From: Microthyrium microscopicum
Lineage: Eukaryota; Ascomycota; Dothideomycetes; Microthyriales; Microthyriaceae
Assembly: GCA_010405405.1 (NCBI GenBank)
Contig: MU004241.1
Location: forward strand, 620,001-684,000
Length of the DNA stretch: 64,000 nt
Direction: 5' to 3'
Shown here: positions 7,131-63,499 of the stretch, in pieces
How positions within the stretch are numbered: the first letter of the stretch is position 1
How the letters are laid out: each line of letters opens with the position of its first letter
Translations under genes and position numbers: made by a program
The notes under the pieces: generated by a model
Seen by the model: only the letters and a program-made list of their open reading frames with translations
What the model was told of the DNA's origin: nothing
Database searches by the model: none

Positions 7131-7720
7131 AATATATAGCTTACTTAGTAGGGCGTAAAATATAAGAATAGTACTATCTTAACTAAAAAAAAAAGGTTAT
7201 TACTCCTTAGTAACTACTTATAGTAGTAATTACTAAGTTCTTAAATACCTTCTTAGTTAGCTATAATAAATATAAGAAATATATCTTTCTATTAGGTCTA
7301 GAAGATAAAAGCTTAGTTATATATCCTACTTATAACCTACTAGAATTAGAATAATAATATTAAAGGCTAATTAAAACGTTTAGAAAGGATAGACTATAAA
7401 GGTAATATATAGCTTACTTAGGACGTAAGATATAGAAATAATAATATCTTAACTAGTTAGAAAAGGCTATTATGCCTTAATAGCTAGTTATATAGTAATC
7501 TTTAATCTCTTTTCCTAAAAATTATATCTTCTACCTAAAGATTATAACTATTTTATCTAGGTACTAGATATATTTAGATACTAATATCTAGATATATCTA
7601 GATATATTTAGATATATCTAGATATATAAAAAATTACTAGTAAGCGTTATTTATATTCTATTATACGTAGCTCTAGCTATAATAAATTTACTTAAGTATA
7701 GTATAAGCTATACTTAAATA

Positions 7721-8270
7721 ACTATAATATATTTAATAAGTTTAAAATATTTTAAATAGTTTTATAATATTTCTAATAAAGTATATAATATTTTATACGT
7801 ATTTAATATCTTTATAATAAGTTTAAAATAACTATAATATACCTAATAAGTTTAAAATATTTTAAATAGTTTTATAATATTTCTAATAAAGTATATATTA
7901 TCTTATATATATCTAATATTTTTATAACAAGTTTTAAATAACTATAATATACCTAATAAGTTTAAAATATTTTAAATAGTTTTATAATATTTCTAATAAA
8001 GTATATATTATCTTATATATATCTAATATTCTTATAATAAGTTTTAAATAACTATAATGTACCTAATAAGTTTAAAATATTTTAAATAGTTTTATAATAT
8101 TTTTAATAAAGTATATATTATCTTATATATATCTAATGTTTTTATAATAAGTTTAAAATAACTACAATATACCTAATAAGTTTAAAATATTTTAAATACT
8201 TTTAAAATATTTTTAATAAAGTATATAGTTATCTTATACGTATCTAATATCTTTATAATAAGTTAAATAT
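7721..8270. repeat. 110-bp tandem repeat, five copies
   Basis: The motif ACTATAATATACCTAATAAG begins units at 7721, 7831, 7941, 8051 and 8161, exactly 110 bp apart. The copies are nearly identical, which is unusual for RIP targets this dense, and they end at about 8270 where base composition changes. This is a minisatellite-like array; no promoter or origin role can be read from it. Confidence 0.85.
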
Positions 8271-35536: not shown

Positions 35537-35749
35537 GCATGTGGGCGACAAAATAAGTGACACGCTTCCATCAAGTTTGATGTCTGCCATCTGCTACGCT
35601 ATACATGTATGCTAGGGTCTATCATTTTCTTCTAATGTACTCAATCCCCCATCGAATGCGTTGGGATTTAAAGTAGCCTTTCTTGAAGAGGTGCGATGGG
35701 AGACATCATACTTGATGGGAGCGCGCCATTTATTTTGTCACCCGGTTGA
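35537..35749. mobile_element. Foldback MITE, copy 2
   Basis: The left end GCGACAAAATAAGTGACACGC and right end GCGCGCCATTTATTTTGTCACC are inverted repeats about 212 bp apart, with a TCCATCAAG/TTGATG core. The right end, CCCGGTTG, matches the CAACCGG-type tip of copy 4. Its right arm supplies the last codons and stop of the aldo/keto reductase remnant. Confidence 0.8.
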
Positions 35750-36629
35750 CGCGTTCAAATTCCAGATCAATCGAGACTTCATCCACATCTGTGAGCTCCT
35801 CGTTGTGTTCTTCTATTGTCATTGGTACTTTATCAATAATACAGTAACGTTTTTTATGGACTCCTCTCAAAGGTGGTGTATCCCCGAACGCATAACCTGT
35901 AGGATCTTGAACTCTTCCGCCGATAGTTGCTTCCGACAGCTTACGAACCGCCTGCTCCTCCTCTGCCGTCAAAGAAATAGACAAACCTCCCAGATTCTCT
36001 TGCAGCCGATGTAGTTTCGTTGTTCCAGGGATCGCAAAAACATCATCGCCTTGCGCCAACAACCACGCGAGACAACGGCATAGCAAAATAAATGGCGTAC
36101 CCTTATTAACTCTAATGGCTACTACCAGCGCTGCTACCTAAAAGATACTTTACTTCCTATCGTATCTAACACATACTCCTAATCCGAAAGCCTTTAAAAG
36201 TCAATAGAGTATATAGTAACAGAGCGTAGCGTCTAAGCGCTATTAGAGCTGATAGGAGTACGCCAATTATTCTGCCATGCCTTACCTAGGACCTTTCTGA
36301 TACCAAATTTGGTAGACAAGAAGATGTCTTCGCGCTTAGTTGGATTGGCCTTGAACCACTTGTTCAGGAGATCTCCCGAGTCGCCATGTTCGTCGGCTAA
36401 AGGTATTTGATTAGCAAGATGTGCAGCTAGAGAGGGCGAGGATCTTACCAGAGTCCCAGAATGTCTCGCCAGCCTTGTATACTTCGTCCAAATACGCAAG
36501 GCGTGTCTCATCTGAACCAGGTAGGCCGTAGTTGCCACTGAGGCTCATAAGTCCCAGGCCTAGACGTGGAACTTCTGGACCATTGCGGCCCAAAGGACGG
36601 GTTGGAAGAGGCTTGGTAACTTTTGACAT
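35730..36629 (-). pseudogene. Aldo/keto reductase broken by a MITE
   Basis: The N-terminal part (36629-36449 and 36396 to about 36284, 52-bp intron 36397-36448) carries RPLGRNGPEVPRLGLG, LDEVYKAGETFWDS and DIFLSTKFG, as in YakC-type NADPH-dependent reductases. It then runs straight into MITE copy 3. On the other side the C-terminal part resumes with LAWLLAQGDDVFAIPGTTK. About 145 residues, including the catalytic His region and the barrel middle, are missing. The DxYG catalytic Tyr position reads DEHG, so it was already abnormal. The last codons and the TAA lie in MITE copy 2. No full-length active enzyme can be made from this locus. Confidence 0.85.
36073..36283. mobile_element. Foldback MITE, copy 3 (inside AKR remnant)
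   Basis: Starts CAACGGCATAGCAAAATAAA and ends in the inverted ATTATTCTGCCATGCCTTA, 211 bp. The flanks do not match (CGAGA left, CCTAG right), so there is no target duplication. This agrees with loss of adjoining reductase sequence during or after insertion. Confidence 0.85.
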
Positions 36630-36848: not shown

Positions 36849-37060
36849 CAACCGGTGGAAAAAATAACTGGCATGCTCCCATCGATTTCGATAGCTCCCA
36901 CCTGACACGCTTTACTATCGAGTGCTTCATTTCCCATAAGGCGCGTTCATACTGGCACAGTTTATTGAACGCAATGGAAAATATAGCATCTTTGTTTAGT
37001 AGCGTCCATGGGAGCCATTGAAGTGGATGGGGCCACGCCAGTTATTTTGTCGACCGGTTG
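36849..37060. mobile_element. Foldback MITE, copy 4, with target duplication
   Basis: 212 bp, starting CAACCGGTGG and ending GTCGACCGGTTG. The duplicated target ACTGC lies directly at 36844-36848 and 37061-37065. Each arm has an outer part (AAAATAACTGGC), then GCTCCCATCGA and CGATAGCTCCC. The inner sequence is also roughly palindromic, so the whole element folds back. No coding capacity. Confidence 0.92.
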
Positions 37061-37065
37061 ACTGC

Positions 37066-37652: not shown

Positions 37653-39600
37653 ATGGATAATGACACGACTCCATCAACGTCGACATACAACCCCTCCGGC
37701 AGTTCTTCTCCCGCAGCCGCTATTCAGTTTTGTTCGCGGTGTGATAAACCTTTCACAAACGGTCAGAATTGCAAGAACATGTGCTTAGCATTTCGATGGC
37801 TGATACTAGATGTAGAAACCTCGCATCGTCGTCATGTTCGTTACTGTGGGAGTCGTACCCGGAACCGACCACGATCGTGCCGTGCCTGCAACGTTGCAAA
37901 GATCAAATGTAACTTTGAGGCACCTTGTATGAGATGCGCCAAGAAGAATATAGACTGCATCTATGATGGTCCGATGGCTGGAGCCAAACGACCATCGTCT
38001 AAATTGGCAAAAGAGGCTCCAGAAGCTCACGCAACGCCCTTGAATGTGGACGATTTTACCATGGCATACGATGATTCTGCCTATGATGGCAATCTTGAAT
38101 TGACCGACTCTTTTCGCGAATCCGCTATCAATAGCAACAACAATCTTTCCCTGATGGAGTTCAGCACATCAATGCTTGAAATTGACGAGTCCGTGATTCT
38201 GGACGATTACTTCCATCTTGAAGATCAGACCTCAGCTCAGCTTATGAGGTTACCAGAGGTTTCGTTGCTATCAAACGGAAAGAATGAGGAGCATGTTTAC
38301 CGACTGCCTTCTTGGTGTTCATGGACGCAGAGGGGTGCTACGCTTACGGCAATGACCGAGACTGCCATAGATCTGTAAGATTCCCCGTGACAAATCACAT
38401 TTCTTGACGACACTTGTTGGAACGACAACGATTATATCTCCCATCCTACTCGATGGCTACCATAGAATGCGTTCTTGACCGAGTGCTATGGAGCGCGTCG
38501 AATGCGGCAGGTCTTTTATGGTTTCACACCGACAAGACTATTTGGTCTTTTCGTTGTGTTAGCTCCAATCGTAATCTTATACTGACAGATTCCAGGGAAT
38601 CAAATCATCGGGCACTTATTGAGCCTCATCGAACATCCGCTCTGAGCTACGCTGATCTTGTGATACAAGCGCTGAGGTCCTTCCCCACGATGATGCTGAG
38701 AAAAGAGACATTTCCATGGTTTATCCATCGCCATGCCAACCTTCTAACAGACTCTGGTAGAGATCTACCCCAAGCACTTTCAATTTGCATGAGTATTTCA
38801 CAGATGTTTGTTCTACGTACTCCAGAAACAAGACACTATCTCTGGGAAACCATCAAAAGAGAAAACCAACGGTTGTTCAATCAGGTATGCTACCAGAGCT
38901 CATAATTTAGACCTCTAGCTAACAATGAACAGAAAGACCAGATGCATGCTTTTGAAATAAGCGCTTCTTTACAAGCTCAAGTAATTTATCTGGTTATGAG
39001 TCTCATCGATAGCTCCCCTGAGAGCGAAGAAGCGTGCTTGGAATTAATGGAAAGTTTGAACGTAAGTCTGCAAATATTCATTATCGTGATCTGCATGTTG
39101 ACATCTCAAGTCGCTTTATATATCAGCGAAGAAGATGCTTGCAGGACCCATGACTCCAAGTGAGCTCTCTAGCCGAAGCATGAGTTGGAAAGGTTGGATT
39201 CTCGCAGAGTCTCAGAGAAGGTAGGCTCTATACCAAAGGATTACACTGACAAGATTACTGACTGATAGCCATCCATAGAATGACTAACTTATGGTTTCTT
39301 ATTGGTACCGTCATCTGTATCAAGACAGGCATGATGTGCGATGATTCCCCCTCCTATAAGCCTATACCACTCCCTGCTCTCAAATCTCTATGGGAGGCCT
39401 CCTCGGAATCAGCCTGGGGATTTGAATATGAAGCGACTCGCAATATTCAAACAAGCGGTCTAGAGACCTTCGGTGATCTCATGGAAGCCCAAAAATATCG
39501 GTTTCTACCATCAAACGCTCAAAGACTGGACAAATGGAACGCAGGGGTCGATAATCTAGGAGTTTTATTGACTTTGGCCTCAACAATAATACGAAGCTAA
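37653..39600 (+). CDS. C2H2/Zn2Cys6 transcription factor
   Basis: Six exons (37653-37761, 37816-38374, 38596-38884, 38933-39061, 39132-39220, 39279-39600) give 498 residues. A C2H2-like finger (Cys27, Cys30, His43, Cys47) is followed by a fungal zinc cluster, CxxC-x6-C-x5-C-x2-C-x6-C at residues 58-84. The rest is the fungal regulator region with QALRSFPTMMLRKETFPWFI and ICMSISQMFVLRTPETRHYLW, conserved in this class. It is a nuclear DNA-binding regulator; targets are unknown. The second intron (38375-38595, 221 bp) is an introner-like element; the others are 48-70 bp. Without removing that intron the gene would look broken. No adjacent pathway genes point to a target. Confidence 0.85.
38375..38595 (+). 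mobile_element. Introner-like element forming an intron of the regulator gene
   Basis: The intron begins GTAAGATTCCCC and ends CTGACAGATTCCAG. Over its first ~105 and last ~75 bases it closely matches the intron at 53547-53761 in an unrelated gene. The shared pieces include CAAATCACATTTCTTGACGA, CGATGGCTACCATAGA and GTTGTGTTAGCT. Splice donor, CTGAC branch and acceptor are all inside the repeat, and removal restores the frame exactly (phase 2). A CCATC/GATGG hairpin lies near the middle of the left half. Confidence 0.85.
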
Positions 39601-39636: not shown

Positions 39637-39849
39637 CAATTGCATAGCGAAATAAATGGCGTACTCCCATCAACTCTAATGGCACCTAGACGCGACGCTC
39701 TATTATTAAGTGCGTTCTTTGCTACAAAGGGCGTTCAGATTGGGAATATTCATTAGATTCGATGGGAATTAGAACATCTTCTGATTAGCAGCGCTGGTGG
39801 TAGCCATCAGAGTCCATGAGAGTACGCCATTTATTTTGCCATGCCGTTG
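39637..39849. mobile_element. Foldback MITE, copy 5, with target duplication
   Basis: 213 bp, starting CAATTGCATAGCGAAATAAA and ending ATTTTGCCATGCCGTTG. The duplicated target GCCCG is at 39632-39636 and 39850-39854. The arms carry GGCGTACTCCCATC. It lies between the convergent regulator and dehydrogenase genes, 30 bp from the latter's stop. Confidence 0.92.
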
Positions 39850-41261: not shown

Positions 41262-42970
41262 ATGGGGAGGGTTAGCAAACGAAATCGTGCTCAATTCGTT
41301 TACGTGTTTTCTAGCCAAATCTAGGTTAGGGGCTATTAGCGCTCAAATCTACGAGTATTAAGCAAAAATAATACGTTATATACAAATTTTTCCTATATAC
41401 GTTTTCCTACTATAACGTTGTTATATTTTAATTAGATCTTAACTAAAAAGAGCCCAAAATAGATACTACTAAAGCTAACAATATTAAGATAGCTATTATT
41501 AGTATTTTAGTAATACTAATATATAAGCTTCTTAATAATAAACGATAAGATAAAGAATATAGGCTACTAATTGAATATATATAGTTTAATTAGTATCTTA
41601 AAGATAAGTTAGATTAAATATATAAAGTCAAATATTAGTATATACTATAAGCTTAGATTAAAGTAATATCTATAGTACTAATTAGTATATAATAGATTTA
41701 AGAAGAATAAAATATAATAGCTAGTAGAGATATTTAATCTTAATAACGTCCCTCTTCTATATTAAATTATATTTCTAAATAAAGGCAATTTCCTATTATA
41801 TATAGTATACTATAGGCTTATTAGAATTTATACCTATATTAATATTTATTAATACTTTAGAAGAAGTATTAATTATATAAAGTTCTACTTTAACGCTATA
41901 TTATTATACTTATATAATAAATATATAGAGTTATTATTACGATTCTACTCTCTCCTTATATTATTAAGATATAAGTAATATGCTAAAGCTATTAATTGTA
42001 CTAGTAGTATATATAAATTTTAGAGCTAGATTAATAGAATATATATTAATATTAGTAGGCTAGAAAGCGTCTAAATCTAGTAAGAATTCTATAGTAGTTA
42101 TAAAGGAAACTACTATATAAAAACGCAAGCTATAGCTACGCCTAATAGGATATTACTAGTACTTAATTATAGCTACTTTAGATTCTTAAATAACCTTCTA
42201 ATATTAATTAATTCTAGTCTTAAAGATAGGATTTAATAGATATTTAGTAATAGTCTAAAGAAGCTATTATATAGCGACGTAGCTTATCCTACTAATAATA
42301 TAATTATATCTCTATACTAAGGCATAGAATTACTTCTTTAGTAGTAGAACTTTAATCTATAATAAGCTAATATTTATATTGCTATAGAGTAGATATTTAC
42401 TATTTTAAAGAACTTATAGTAGGGAGAGACGTCTAACTATAGGCGTAATATATAAATAGGATTAATACTTATAGTATATTATTAGACTATATTAGTATTA
42501 TTTTAAAACTATAGAATAGTGTTATAGGGATATAATCTTATTTAGAGTTATTTTAGGGTTTTGCTATTATTAATTAATAAATATTTAAATCTTATAAGTA
42601 TATTTAATATTCTAATGCTATTAAAAGGGAAAGAAGAAGATGATTTAAATAGTATAGAATAATTATAGTATTTATTAAAGATGTTAAAGTTATAGAGTAA
42701 AGTTAGATATTTTTATTAAAGGAAGAAAAGTTAATAAGGTAGGGTTAGCTAATTATTTAATCCTTCTATATACTTTTAAAGCTTTTAGTATCTATTATAA
42801 GATTTATATAAAAACTATATTCTAATACTACTACTAAATTACCTAGAGAATACTAGAATAATCTTACTAATGCCTATTATCTAAAAGACTCTTTAATAAC
42901 TTCTTTATCTTTATTATCTCTAAGTATAATCCTTTTACCTTTTCCTTTAAGCCTATAACTTTACCTCCTT

Positions 42971-42997
42971 TACTACTACTACTACTACTACTACTAC
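42971..42997 (+). repeat. ACT trinucleotide run
   Basis: About eight uninterrupted ACT units inside the transposon; a shorter run is at the matching place in the second copy (about 58,853-58,870). Confidence 0.8.
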
Positions 42998-44440
42998 CTA
43001 TAAAATTATTAGCATTACTACTACCCTAATTATTATAATCTCTAAGAGCCTAAATAATTAATTTAGACATCTTTATAATAGTATCTTTTAGTATATAAAT
43101 TTCCCTAGTTCTTTTATACTTTTTCTGCGCTCTTAGAGTTAAAGTAGAAGCCCTTAAAGAGTAAGGAATTACTAGAGGGGTAGGGATACCTATAAGATTT
43201 AGCTATAGGTTATTAGAACTAATATCTTAATGTATTATTACTAATATCTCTTTAGAATTATTAAATAATTCTACAATGTTGCTATTACTATCTAAAAGAA
43301 TATTAATTAATAGGGTACCTTTCTCTAAGAGTCGTTTAGTAAGATTATTATGAGTTATAAAGCTATTATTCTTCTATATCCTTTTAGTTTTAGTAGTAGC
43401 CTTTTTAGCTTTAATAAGGTTATCGTAATAGGTCTATATAGGTTTAAATTAATTAAGCGCCTATCTAAATTCATTATACAGAATATTGTAGCCTAAAGGA
43501 TTTAATCTCTCCTCTATTTACTATAAAATTACTCTCTCTACTACTACTATTATTACTACTTTAGTAGGTCCTTTATCTATTACTAGATTCTTCTTAGTTC
43601 TATATAGGATAGAAACTATATACTACTACTAGATCTTTTATCCTATAAGGGCGTTACTACTAATACTACTATAAGTATTAATCTTCTCTAAATAGTAATA
43701 AAGAGCTATAGTTAATACTAGTGAAGCTTAATCTAGGTGCTACTTCTTACCTCTATTTAAAGAGAGTACTAGCGTTAAAGATACTAGAGTCGTAGGAACT
43801 ATAGGTACTAGTGTAGTAGTAAATGCTTACTATGAAGAGGAGGGTAAATAAGGCTTTAGCTAGCTTTGTAATAGTAATATTAGCGTAAACTAATCTAAAG
43901 ATAGTAGTATAGTACTATTTTGGCGTATATTTCTATATTGTAGTTAGGGCTAGAGATCCTATAGTAGTAATAGTAGTATTTGCTAAGAATTAGCCTTCTA
44001 GCTAAATTCCTATATCTATAATCCTATAATAAAGTTAAAATTAGGATTTTAGCTAATATACGCCTTATTATAGGGTATTTACGTAAGAGCTATCTTATTA
44101 ATATTATAGGCTTTCTTAAATAACTCTAAATACTATAATTCTAGCTATTCTTATAATTCTTACTATTATAGAAGGTACTAAATTAACTCTTCTAGTAAGG
44201 AATTAGTATTGTTAAGTAAGTATTATAAATTTAAAGATATACTAATAATATAGATAAATTTATATAGTATTTTACTACCTATAGCTATATTAAAGATTTA
44301 TTTAACTTTATTAACTTTAATAGCTTTAGCGACTTTAGGATACGTCCCCTAATGACATTCTTAGACTTGTAAATTAACGGAATATCGTTTAAATAGATAC
44401 TAAGCTAATCCTATCTTAGTGCCACTAAACCCTTTTGATT

Positions 44441-52651: not shown

Positions 52652-54114
52652 TTAGGTTTCCTTGGCCCATTGCTTCCCGCTCCAGAGATCGCCAGTAGTC
52701 CAAAGCCAGTAATCACGGCCTTTGATCATCCAGACCAACCAGCTGGGAATCTGCCATCCCATTGCCGCACCAACGCCTTTGTTTCTTCCAATTGGTACTA
52801 GCTGGGTCTCGCGAGTATCTGCCTTGAAAAGCTTCTCATCTCCAACTGCTTTCATTCCAGCGGCAAGAAGTAGATCACGCTTGATGTTCGAACCAAGAAT
52901 AGGAACTGCATTCAGAATTTGATGAATCGCTGGACGCGCGAATGACGATGCATCACCAATCGCGTAGACTCGCTCCCCAACCTTTTCAACTCTCAGAGCT
53001 GCATTGACTTTCACTCGACCATCCGCTTCAAGCAGCGATTTGTCCACAAAATTAGTATTTGGCGTTGTACCCGTCGCAGGAATGTACAGGTCTGCCTCCA
53101 GTGTCTTGCCATCCGCGAGTATCGCCTTGGCTCGAGTTGCAACATTCTCTTTGGTCCCGGCACCAGATGGCTCCACGGCATTGATTCGGGTGTTCTTGAT
53201 GACATTAACTCCAACACAGGCAAGAAACACCTCTGCTTTTCTTGCAATTGATGGTCGAAGGCCTGGTAAAATTTCAGAACCGGCAGTGACGAGTGTTATG
53301 GCAACCTTCGGGCTCTCAAGTGTAGAGTTGAACCAGCCAGCGCTACCATTGAGATACTCGCCTAATTCTCCCGCGGTTTCGACGCCACTTGCGCCACCTC
53401 CAGATATCACGATGCTCTTGGCTGATGAGAGTTCTGAGCGAAACGCGGCCCAGCTGCTTCGAAGGTATTGTTCGTCCTTATTCAAGCCAAGTAGTGGAGA
53501 TGGTGTTGAAGCGCCAGTGGCAATGACCAAGGCGTAGAAGCCAATCCTGGAATTTGTCAGTCTAAGATTATGATCGAAGCTAACACAACCAAAGAAAACA
53601 ATTAGTCTTTTCGTGGCAAAATCATGAATATCCTATTACATTCAGTTTGATCTATATTAAGAACGCACTCTATGGTAGCCATCGAGTACGATGGGAGATA
53701 TGATTGTTTTCGTTTCAACAGATGTCGTCAAGAAATGTGATTTGGCATGGGGAATTCCTACCTCTCGGTCTCAATCCCAACGCTCACAGAAACAGTCCGG
53801 TTGACATGATCGAGTTCTGTTGCAGTGCCTTGAACAAATCGAAAGTTTTGACTTGGATATTGCTCAAACTGTACAGGAATGTTGACGAAAAGTTTCTCTT
53901 GAGGAAGCAAGTCGTCCGAGATCAGCGCGCGAGGGCAGGCTGGTCGACACAGGGCTTGAGAAGCTGTACTGACGATTATGACTTGGTATGTCTCATTGTC
54001 TGTCAGAACTGGTATGGTGTGCTTGAGGGTATAGTGAGCGATGGATATTCCACAATAAGAACCACCAAGGATGACAATGTTCTTTTGGGGCGTCGAGGTC
54101 TTTGTTTGGTCCAT
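52652..54114 (-). CDS. AIF/FSP1-like NAD(P)H:quinone-type flavoprotein
   Basis: Exons 54114-53762 and 53546-52652 give 415 residues. The FAD-binding motif is ILGGSYCGI (15-23), the NAD(P)H-binding GGGASG is at about 167-172, and an FAD-closing VYAIGDASSF follows in the second half; together these define the pyridine-nucleotide-disulphide class, closest in layout to AMID/FSP1 and related fungal oxidoreductases. These oxidise NAD(P)H and pass electrons to quinones; the acceptor here is unknown. The single intron (53547-53761, 215 bp) is an introner-like element and joins exactly in phase (ETER|IGFYALVIATGAS). A hydrophobic C-terminal stretch could touch a membrane. Confidence 0.9.
53547..53761 (-). 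mobile_element. Introner-like element forming the intron of the flavoprotein gene
   Basis: Read on the minus strand it starts GTAGGAATTCCCC and ends CTGACAAATTCCAG, matching the regulator intron at 38375-38595 at both ends and differing mainly in about 45 central bases. Donor, CTGAC branch and acceptor are part of the repeated sequence. At 215 bp it is four times longer than typical introns in this window. Its TCCCATCG...CGATGG core resembles the MITEs. Confidence 0.85.
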
Positions 54115-57119: not shown

Positions 57120-60100
57120 TGGGGAGGGTCAGCAAGGTCATATTCTGCAAATATTTTCTGCTCGTAGATTAGCCAAAAGTAGGTTAGGGGGCGTTAGCGC
57201 GTAGATTAGGGAATATTAAACTAAGAAAACGCGCCTTATACAAATTACCTTCGCAAGGCTTTTTTAACTATAACCCTATCGTATTTTAATTAGATCTTAG
57301 CTAAAAATAGCCTAAAATAGACGCTACTAAAGCTATAGATATTAAGATAGCTACTATTAGTATTTTAGCGTTATTATTAAACTAGCTTTAAGAAGAAGAG
57401 GAATAGGAATAGGATTAAGTAATACTAGCGCGTAATTACTAATTCCCTATAGAATATCCTTTCTATAATTAGAGTCTTAAAGATAAGTTAGATTAAATAT
57501 ATAAGATTAAATATTAGTATACGCTATAGGCTTAAGTTAAAGTAACATCTATAGTACTAATTAGTATATAATAGATTTAAGAAGCATAAAATATAATAGC
57601 TAGCAAAGATAATAGATCTTAAATCTATGCCTCTACCTAATTAAATAATACTACCTAAAAAACTACTATTCCTATTATATATTATATACTACAAATTAGC
57701 TAAAATCTATACCTATAATAATATCTATTAGCACTTTAGAAGAAGTAAAACTTATATAAAGTATTACTTTAATGCTATATTAATCTAGCTTTATAATAAG
57801 TATGCTAATACTTTATTATAATTCTATCCTATCCTTATACTATTAAAATATTTTTAATACTTATAAGCTATAAATTATACTAGTAGCATACTTAAGTTTT
57901 AGGGCTAGATTAATAGAACGTATATTAATATTTTAAGGCTAGAGGGTAACTAAATTTAGTAGTAGTTCTATAGTAGTTATTAAGGAAACTACTATATAAA
58001 AACATAATATATTGCTATACCTAATAGAATATTGCTAGCTATTAATTATAGCTACTTTAGATTCTTAAATAACTCCCTAATGTTAATTAATTCTACTCTT
58101 AAAGATAGAATTTAATAGATGTTTAGTAATAGTCTAAAACTACTCCTTTATAGCAACACTACTTATCTAACGAATAATATAATTATAGCGCTATACTAAG
58201 GCATTAAATTACTACTTTAGTAATATAATTTTAATCTTTAATAGGCGTTCCTTTAAATAAGTATTAAGTAGATATTTATTATTATAAAGAATACGTAGTA
58301 AGGAGGATTATTAGACTATAGGCGTACTATATAGATAAGTTTAATGCCTATAGTATATTATTAAATAGTAGCAATATTATTACAAAACTATAGAATAGCT
58401 TAATAGTAGAAGAATCTCGTAGAGAGCTAATATACTATTAAATTACTAATAATTAATTAATATTTAAATCTAGGTAGTATATTTAATAGTTAAATACTAC
58501 TAGAATTATAGGAATAGGATAATTTAAATAGTATAAGGTAGTTATAATATTAATTAAAGAAGTAGAAGTTATAGAGTAAAGTTAGATAATCTTACTAAAG
58601 GAGAAGAAGTTAATAAAGTAGGGTTAGCTAATTATTTAACCCTTTTATATACTTTTAAAGCTTTTAGTGTCTATTATAAGATTTATATAAAAACTATATT
58701 CTATTTTTACTACTAAATTATATAGAGAATACTAGAATAATCTTATTAACGCCTATTGTTTTAAAGACTTTTTTAATAATTCCTTTATCTCTATTATCTT
58801 TAAGCGTAATCTATTTATCTCTTTTCTTAAACTTATAACTTTATCTCCTTTATTACTACTACTACTACTATTTATATAATTATTAGCACTAGCACTACTT
58901 TGTTTATTTCTATCTCTAAAAGCTTTAATTATTACTTCTAATATCCTTATAATTATATTTAAAGTATTAGAAATCTTTTTACTCTTTTTATACTTTACGC
59001 GTAGACTTAAAGTAGGATTTCTTTACCTTAGAGTTAAAGTTAAAGAACTAACCTATAGAGGGGTAGGAATTTAAGTATTTAAGGTAGGAACTATAGAATT
59101 TAACTACTAGCTACCCTTTTTAAGATTAATTACTAATAGTTCTCTAATAGGAAGATTAAATAATATCTTAATATTGTTATTACTATCTAATATAATATTA
59201 ACTAATAGCGTGCCTTTCTCTAAATACTATTTAGCTATATTATTATATATTTTAAAGCTATCTTCTTTTCTTATCTTCTTAGTATCTATTATTAACTTTT
59301 TCTTACCTATAGCTTTCTTATAGGCTGTTTAAGTAACCTTAAATTAATTAAAAGCTTATTAAAATTTATTAATTAGTATATTATAGCCTAATTTAAGCTA
59401 TTTAACTTTACTAATTCTTTAATGGATTGCTTTCTCTACTATAATCTTATAGGCGTTATAGAAAGGGCTCTCTTTAGTCATAATATTCTTCTTCTTCTTA
59501 AAGAGGTTTAAAATACTCTACTACTAAGTATACTTCTATTTACTAAAGGCGTCTCTACTAATACTACTATAGGTATTAATCTTCTCTAAATAGCAGAATA
59601 CTAGTATTACTAATAGTAGTTATTCCTAGTTTAGGTTAAATTTCTTCTTTTTATTTAAGGGTACTACTACTAGAGCTATAGGGGTAGCTAGTAGTAAGAA
59701 TATAATATCTAGCGTAGTAGGAACTATATACTAGCTCTAGCTCTATAAGTAGGAATTTAGTAATAAATATAGCTCTTACTAGCTCTAGGTAAGTAATATT
59801 AGAGTAAACTAATCTTTATATTATAGTATAGTACTATTTTGGTGTATAGACGTATATTAATCCTAGTTCTAGGTATTTTATAAAGTATATTAAATAATAT
59901 TAGAACTAAGGTCGTAATCTTACGTCTATAATTTTTTAGTAAACTTACTATTATAGTTTTAGCTAACATAAGCTCTAAAGTAAAGAGTTTAGGTAAGAGC
60001 TATCTTATTAATATTATAGGGTACGAGATATAACTCTTTAAACTATAATTCTTACTTAGAATCTAGTAGAGGGTATAGGATTAAGTCCTATAGAGAGGGA

Positions 60101-60503: not shown

Positions 60504-60720
60504 TAACGGCATAGCAGAATCAATGGCTTACTCCCATCAACTCTAATAGCTACTCTACCACCGGCGCTACTAACTCAAAGTGCTTTAATTCCTATTGTAT
60601 CTAATTACTATTCTTAATTCGAACGCCCTTTATGGGAGATAAAGTACTTAATAATAGAGCGTAGTGTCTAGGTGCCATTAGAGTCGATGGGAGTACGCCA
60701 TTTATTTTGCTATGCCGTTA
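60504..60720. mobile_element. Foldback MITE, copy 6, with target duplication
   Basis: 217 bp, starting TAACGGCATAGCAGAATCAA and ending TTTTGCTATGCCGTTA. GCATCT is repeated at 60498-60503 and 60721-60726. The arms contain TACTCCCATC with CTCTAATGG or CGATGG. Confidence 0.88.
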
Positions 60721-61037: not shown

Positions 61038-61252
61038 GCCCACAAAGCACAAAATAAATGGAATTCCCCCATCGACGGCGATGGCTCCCGCTCACTTCAT
61101 ACTCCGTAACGAGACTGTACTTACTTTTCCATCTTAATCGATTACCTGAGAGGAGATCCATCCACTCGATGTAAACAAAAGACGCGTAGAAAGCGTGTTA
61201 TATGGTAGCCATGGCACTCGATGGGGGCGTGCCATTTAATATTGATTTGTTA
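61038..61252. mobile_element. Foldback MITE, copy 7
   Basis: Left AGCACAAAATAAATGG with CCCCCATCGACGGCGATGGC, right GCACTCGATGGGGGCGTGCC and ATTTAATATTGATTTG, inverted and about 215 bp apart. The right tip is degenerate and no target duplication is seen. Confidence 0.75.
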
Positions 61253-61648
61253 AGGAGAAATCGTGAACCTTGCTGATCTCTCTGTCCCCTGAATTTCTGT
61301 GCTTTTTGACGACATAATCTGATGAAACACTACGGATACAAAGCAAGACCACCGCAGAAGCAAGTATAATCTGATATACCTCTTGGATAATCCTCTTGAG
61401 ATTATGAATCCTCTAAGGTCCTGTTTTCCGTCTATTTCAAGGCCGTATTTGGTTAATTCATATGTGCGCTACAGGAGTTTGGTTCTTTAGGTGTGGCTGT
61501 ACTGCGCCAATGGCTTTTAGTCCTTGTAAATGCCCATATTTGGGTGTGAAAATAATTTACATGAGCCAGGAATGTGACCCAAATGGATATCCAAGGGCCA
61601 GAACCTTTTAGGATGTGTCCTTGCTATCTATTTGCCAGAAGCTAGCTA

Positions 61649-61863
61649 CCAGTTGATAGAATGAATGGCCCGCTCTCATCAGCCGCCCTGGCTCCTGAAC
61701 GCTAGGCACATTCTATCATCATGTCTTCTATCTATTGAAACAACCTTTCATTTTCGAACAGCTTATCGAATGCGATGGGCAATACAGCATCTTTTCCTTT
61801 CGCACATTGGTGGGAGTTATCGCCGTCGATAGATATGTGCCATTTGTTTTGCCAGTCCGTTGG
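61649..61863. mobile_element. Foldback MITE, copy 8
   Basis: Left TTGATAGAATGAATGGCCCG with CTCTCATCAG, right ATGTGCCATTTGTTTTGCCA and CCGTTG, inverted at about 215 bp. A chance frame (61735-61980) starts inside it and is not a gene. Confidence 0.7.
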
Positions 61864-63286: not shown

Positions 63287-63499
63287 CAACCGATGGACAA
63301 AATAACTGGCGTTCTCCCATCAGCGTCGATGGCTCCCACGAACGTTGTTAATTCAAACGTGCTATATTTCCCATCGCATTCGATGAATAATCGAAGTTTG
63401 AACGCGCTCTATGGCATATAAAGCACTCGATAGCAAATCGTCTTGTATGGGAGCCATCGCACTCGTTGGAAGCGCGCCATTTATTTTGTCGACCCCTTG
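63287..63499. mobile_element. Foldback MITE, copy 9, with target duplication
   Basis: 213 bp, starting CAACCGATGGACAAAATAAC and ending ATTTTGTCGACCCCTTG. ACCTC lies on both sides (63282-63286 and 63500-63504). It has an outer arm and a CCATCAGCGTCGATGG hairpin on the left, with GGGAGCCATCGCACTCG on the right. Confidence 0.92.

Follow-up and report, generated by a model that had tools for sequence, protein, structure and literature searches.

Two introns in the window (the whole stretch of 64,000 nucleotides of Microthyrium microscopicum DNA that was analysed) are copies of one element, and the elements almost certainly represent a family of introner-like elements (ILEs), a kind known in Dothideomycetes. 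Our reading as a whole, which we consider probable, is that this family was copied as complete GT-to-AG introns in the sense direction, via reverse splicing, and that it has by now decayed. The first copy is a complete 221-nt intron on the forward strand (38375-38595) in the gene of a Zn2Cys6 regulator, and the second is a complete 215-nt intron on the reverse strand (53547-53761) in a pyridine nucleotide-disulphide oxidoreductase-like (flavoprotein) gene. Both interrupt their genes in phase 2. Coordinates, lengths and phases are those given in an earlier note on this DNA, which had also described the two introns as copies of one sequence whose ends coincide with the intron ends, and our comparison bears this out. 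In a global alignment they have in common the donor, the 5' half, a CTGAC motif and a TTCCAG acceptor, the longest ungapped block between them (pair I3) is 97 nt at 90% identity, and likeness between copies stops at the splice sites. The CTGAC motif resembles a branch site and corresponds to a family consensus of CTRAC ahead of the acceptor; it lies at 38582-38586 (forward strand) in copy 1 and at 53556-53560 (reverse strand) in copy 2.

The spliced flavoprotein is identical to the public Microthyrium microscopicum protein P0001 in 415 of 415 residues, and the Pfam domain Pyr_redox_2 runs across the junction of copy 2. In the regulator gene the frame is open on both sides of copy 1. The public regulator model P0125 begins downstream of copy 1, so that copy 1 is absent from the model, and regulator homologues span both sides of it, with one to three residues gapped in the alignment close to the junction. 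Because of this start of P0125 and the loose homologue alignment, the exact splice at copy 1 rests on the frame and on the consensus ends. The earlier note had put other introns at 42-102 nt; we looked at this in the regulator gene only, where all other introns are indeed far shorter than 221 nt. P0125 implies lengths of 48, 49 and 58 nt for them (a script had called 48, 65 and 48 nt, with two acceptors wrong when compared to P0125).

When copy 1 was used as a BLAST query against its own 36.9-Mb genome, at least 47 match rows were obtained, which is a lower bound with 40 of 56 candidates scored and in which some copies are split over several rows. Copy 2 was retrieved at E=8.7e-41, plus at least 45 more rows elsewhere in the genome. 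A 28-nt core pattern was found at 67 places with up to 3 mismatches, and a 19-nt pattern of the 3' end at 50 places with up to 2 mismatches, while the reversed control gave 0 in both cases. The E value, the further rows and the zero controls together exclude chance as the source of the likeness. For further counts we used one fixed introner profile of 223 positions, built from 29 chosen copies (alignment A1), since nhmmer, when iterated, strayed into MITE and palindromic sequence and had reached 169 hits by round 3. Of the core sites, 53 of 67 score at least 50 bits with this profile; the other 14 score below 50 bits, some of them being simple palindromic repeats in which nothing points to an intron. 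The fixed-profile search (E below 1e-6) gave 108 hits in 77 of 84 loci, which had been picked by likeness to introners and hence are no random sample. Among the 69 near-complete hits, GT and AG ends are recognisable in 56 and not in 13. Merging of two exact tandems left 54 introns, 52 of which have enough flank for the counts of frames and sites below. Most copies are about 170-240 nt long. One locus (L039:501-3386) holds seven profile hits in about 3 kb, three of them with both ends recognised. The possibility of only two copies, which the earlier note had named as speaking against its introner-like reading, is thus contradicted by the BLAST rows and profile hits, and dozens of copies in unrelated genes, many with both splice ends, support that reading.

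The frames around the elements agree with their being introns. In 42 of 52 cases, removal of the element leaves a sense frame that exceeds the antisense one in length; in 8 it is shorter and in 2 equal. Of the same 52, 44 have a sense frame open over 240 nt or more out of 300, and 8 have an antisense frame open to that extent. An in-frame stop lies within the element in 46 of 52 introns, and the length is divisible by 3 in 14 of 52. Phases 0, 1 and 2 occur 19, 14 and 11 times among the 44 introns with an open sense frame. In an earlier set of 49 introns, the median frame was 444 nt in sense and 234 nt in antisense, compared to 300 nt at random positions, which were taken from the same loci and therefore are often coding. 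Complete single copies have one donor and one acceptor each. Ten spliced host fragments, hand-picked from 22, were searched with Pfam: in five a domain clearly runs across the junction, in one more a domain starts at the junction, and four have no domain. Public Microthyrium microscopicum proteins match the predicted splice in two of the three genes checked, the regulator being the exception. In the phosphate transporter of locus L045, 494 of 501 aligned residues are identical to the public Microthyrium microscopicum protein, with the 7 mismatches at the two ends of a partial model. The junction there falls within an Arg/Lys codon in a stretch that is near-invariant in six fungal proteins, and zero residues are gained or lost at it. 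Host genes encode a flavoprotein, a Zn2Cys6 regulator, an FHA protein, an amino-acid permease, a kinase, a UCH, a helicase and a phosphate transporter.

An imperfect inverted repeat fills the middle of the profile (positions about 63-138), and a short palindrome comes after it. In copy 1 the inverted repeat, placed by pairing counts, occupies 74 nt (38438-38511, forward strand), and the palindrome, read by eye, lies at 38534-38552 (forward strand), diverged from its family consensus GAAAAGACCATTTGGTCTTTTC. The inverted repeat of the core is real: in 47 copies, 84.1% of cells pair, compared to 29-49% with slid partners. Little points to selection for pairing in the copies that exist today. The shuffle mean of the same measure is 83.6%, and both-side changes, seen in 10 core pairs, are in no clear excess over shuffles (mean 6.4; 10 reached in 38 of 500). 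The two window copies fold slightly better than their shuffles (z of -1.31 and -1.63), RNAalifold gave no consensus structure for alignment A1, and Rfam gave no match in the window from 38000 to 39000.

A form lacking half of the hairpin makes up 13 of 57 nearly whole copies, and 2 more are intermediate. In a tree built without the hairpin region, in which 38 of 54 inner branches are open and which is therefore weak, six of the 13 deleted copies fall together (SH-aLRT 94). When both intermediate copies are taken as full, the label of the deleted form changes 8 times on this tree; the shuffle mean is 11.8, and 0 of 500 shuffles reach 8. From the grouping and the label test together, the form with the half-hairpin deletion probably went on spreading. 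Other deleted copies originated independently, perhaps through a deletion between two GAATGCG words. Pairwise identity among the 57 copies has a mean of 66% and a maximum of 85%, and the median identity of nearest neighbours is 76%. With no pair more than 85% identical the burst looks old, and the family now seems decayed and inactive. The earlier note had called the element mobile, a word that suits its past spread and not its present state.

The introns share a preference of insertion site, (A)G|GY. The base that precedes the donor is G in 46 of 52 introns, with A the commonest base before it (position -2; 21 of 52); the base that follows the acceptor is G in 40 of 52, and the next one is T or C in 40 of 52. 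We found no consistent flanking repeat or target-site duplication (TSD) at the junctions of 49 introns, which had been selected for having both splice sites. A scan over 2205 settings of word and shift, with 20 permutations each, had its best z of 5.9 at 34% identity for words away from the junction, and this was treated as noise. The element ends are not inverted, as read by eye from the family consensus, and joining the flanks revealed no recognisable empty-site paralogue among the fetched loci. Four pairs of copies (L022, L068, L077 and L079) adjoin exactly as AG|GT. Such pairs may be spliced stepwise or all at once; in a [D1,2] stwintron, for comparison, an internal intron divides the external donor between G1 and T2. 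In L022 the first copy is not recognised by the profile in its 5' part, nor is the second copy of L079 in its 3' part. In L068 and L077 the two copies of a pair are unequal in length and thus are not simple tandem duplicates; the later copy seems to have landed at the junction of the earlier one. Separately, three loci hold fused copies with an inner stretch repeated (L021:2088-2451, L085:387-685 and L073:307-790). The internal breakpoints of L021 and L085 are nearly identical (profile position 181, then 22), so that one dimer may have spread.

The mechanism that we propose would have copied an intron whole, from GT to AG and in the sense direction, into many unrelated Microthyrium microscopicum genes. 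Reverse splicing would have reinserted the excised intron RNA at an exonic G|G, either into DNA or into RNA that was then reverse transcribed. Reverse splicing suggests itself because the copied unit is the spliceosome's excised product, because no TSD was seen, and because some copies lie exactly at the splice junctions of others. Mostly sense copies at G|G sites without a visible TSD fit it better than cut-and-paste transposition. We put the chance that the copies were spread by reverse splicing of excised intron RNA at about even.

A different route from intron RNA to DNA has been proposed in the Hypoxylaceae, where symmetrical stwintrons and their cropped sister introns are described as inserted seamlessly, only in sense and without TSD, with inverted repeats and with shortened forms that still spread (PMC8469720, PMC12403724). 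The model given for the stwintrons of Hypoxylon is that intron RNA is inserted at DNA breaks during repair (PMC12403724). The Microthyrium introners are like them in being inserted seamlessly and in sense, without TSD, with an inverted repeat and with shortened forms, so that the seamless insertions, the inverted-repeat core and the spread of a shortened form would all be accounted for by insertion at breaks. The introners differ from these descriptions in being single introns, in having an inner and not a terminal inverted repeat, and in their clear site preference, whereas no clear preference is reported as found for Hypoxylon stwintrons (PMC8469720, PMC12403724). Since (A)G|GY is unexpected from random breaks, unless selection for splicing filtered the sites, we regard break-repair insertion as rather doubtful for the present family.

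Algal introners are ascribed to DNA transposons, and we compared our family to one of MITE-like elements, about 214 bp long, in the same genome. With 40 of 96 candidates scored, that family gave at least 73 matches, at least 40 of them near-full rows. Its members have terminal inverted repeats, and several of the copies viewed have border repeats of 5-6 nt by eye. Eight MITE-like copies lie in the window, with inverted ends resembling CAACCGGTGGACAAAATAA and some with border repeats of 5-6 nt by eye. One of 214 nt (36850-37063, forward strand) has an inner palindrome that resembles the introner core, and is a related repeat outside the introner. Another (63287-63494, reverse strand) scores higher with the introner profile than any other single match, with 28.9 bits on the opposite strand. 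The others are at 35544-35750, 36074-36274, 39650-39849, 60513-60708, 61049-61242 and 61648-61862. That the introners are themselves a non-autonomous cut-and-paste element, like the algal ones and kin of this family, would explain why palindromic core blocks are common to both, the profile reaching 28.9 bits on MITE copies compared to at most 5.5 bits on shuffles (n=3200). The likeness is confined to the core, however. In a set of 32 MITE rows (29 distinct; three are the same DNA twice, as L048 overlaps the window), the core is above the 1% shuffle level in 28 of 32. Its first arm, in copy 1 the module common to the MITE family, exceeds that level in 27 rows, the third block in 17 and the second arm in 9. 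Some of the signal of the second arm lies on the MITE first arm, the blocks being inverted copies of one another. None of the 32 rows exceeds the 1% shuffle level for the end of the MITE, and none does so for the first 36 nt or for the last 78 nt of the introner (0 of 32 each). With no match above shuffles for either kind of end, no TSD, and both splice sites carried by the element in 49 of 49 tabulated copies (which had been chosen for having them), we consider DNA transposition an unlikely origin of the copies. The introners resemble the DNA-transposon introners of PMC9860276 in being repeated introns in many genes, with a core here that is related to a TIR-bearing element, and differ from their description in having no TSD, no terminal inverted repeats and both splice sites element-borne.

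An origin of the full introner from the MITE, with the MITE end equivalent to introner positions 39-57, was also considered; this stretch alone is above the 1% shuffle level in 0 of 32 rows, and we therefore dropped the claim that homology starts at the MITE terminus. With at most 1 mismatch allowed, 118 places match the 17-nt heart of the module (control, 1), some of them clustered. The module is therefore a dispersed genomic repeat, which introners and MITEs carry and which also stands alone. Two palindromic-module clusters are regularly spaced, at about 118 nt in C1:1364146-1364895 and about 135 nt in C7:1012987-1013408. A tentative possibility is that an ordinary short intron took up a piece of a TIR transposon (MITE), kept its palindromic core and so became the introner. 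If so, the element would combine an interior of transposon origin with ends by which the spliceosome spread it, a chimera that would join two models of introner origin regarded as separate.

Inheritance of one intron by paralogous hosts is practically inconceivable, since the hosts are unrelated (flavoprotein, regulator, permease, kinase, helicase etc.) and matches between flanks of different loci, one stretch in L019 and L041 aside, were judged to be introner or MITE pieces or overlapping loci. That stretch, downstream of the introner in L019 and at 838-1058 in L041, is 220 nt long, 75% identical and matches both strands; it looks like another inverted-repeat element.

The origin of new spliceosomal introns is an open question, and dozens of comparable copies provide material for testing. 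With the site preference, the head-to-tail insertions, the deletion form and the transposon-shared core, RNA- and DNA-based models can be compared within one genome. Van der Burgt reportedly described ILEs of Dothideomycetes in 2012, and Huff is said to have reported DNA-transposon introners in 2016. ILEs are known from Dothideomycetes (Collemare 2015, PMC4457414), with copies up to 99% identical in Fulvia (PMC4457414), and a site preference of AG/GY is attributed to them (PMC8469720). Compared by description, the Microthyrium introners are alike in being repeated spliceosomal introns of unrelated genes, with ends at the splice sites and the AG/GY preference; they differ in belonging to the order Microthyriales and in identities of at most 85%, compared to up to 99% in Fulvia. 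Ascomycete introners have been called an outlier without TIRs or TSDs (Gozashti 2022, PMC9860276). No report of Microthyrium introners was found in the literature searched, and the string 'Microthyri' is absent from the main text of PMC9860276, whose supplement may list it. New here are the presence of the palindromic core in a 214-bp MITE family and in dispersed repeats as well, the probable spread of a deleted form and the four exact AG|GT pairs.

Other repeats were also seen in the window. The stretches 41402-44142 and 57260-60052 are a direct duplication with about 74-82% identity and a spacing of about 15.9 kb. There is no ORF of at least 120 aa in the first, and one overlaps the edge of the second; from this near-absence of ORFs the pair are probably decayed repeats. 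A tandem repeat with a spacing of 110 bp, for which five copies are listed, lies at 7604-8263.
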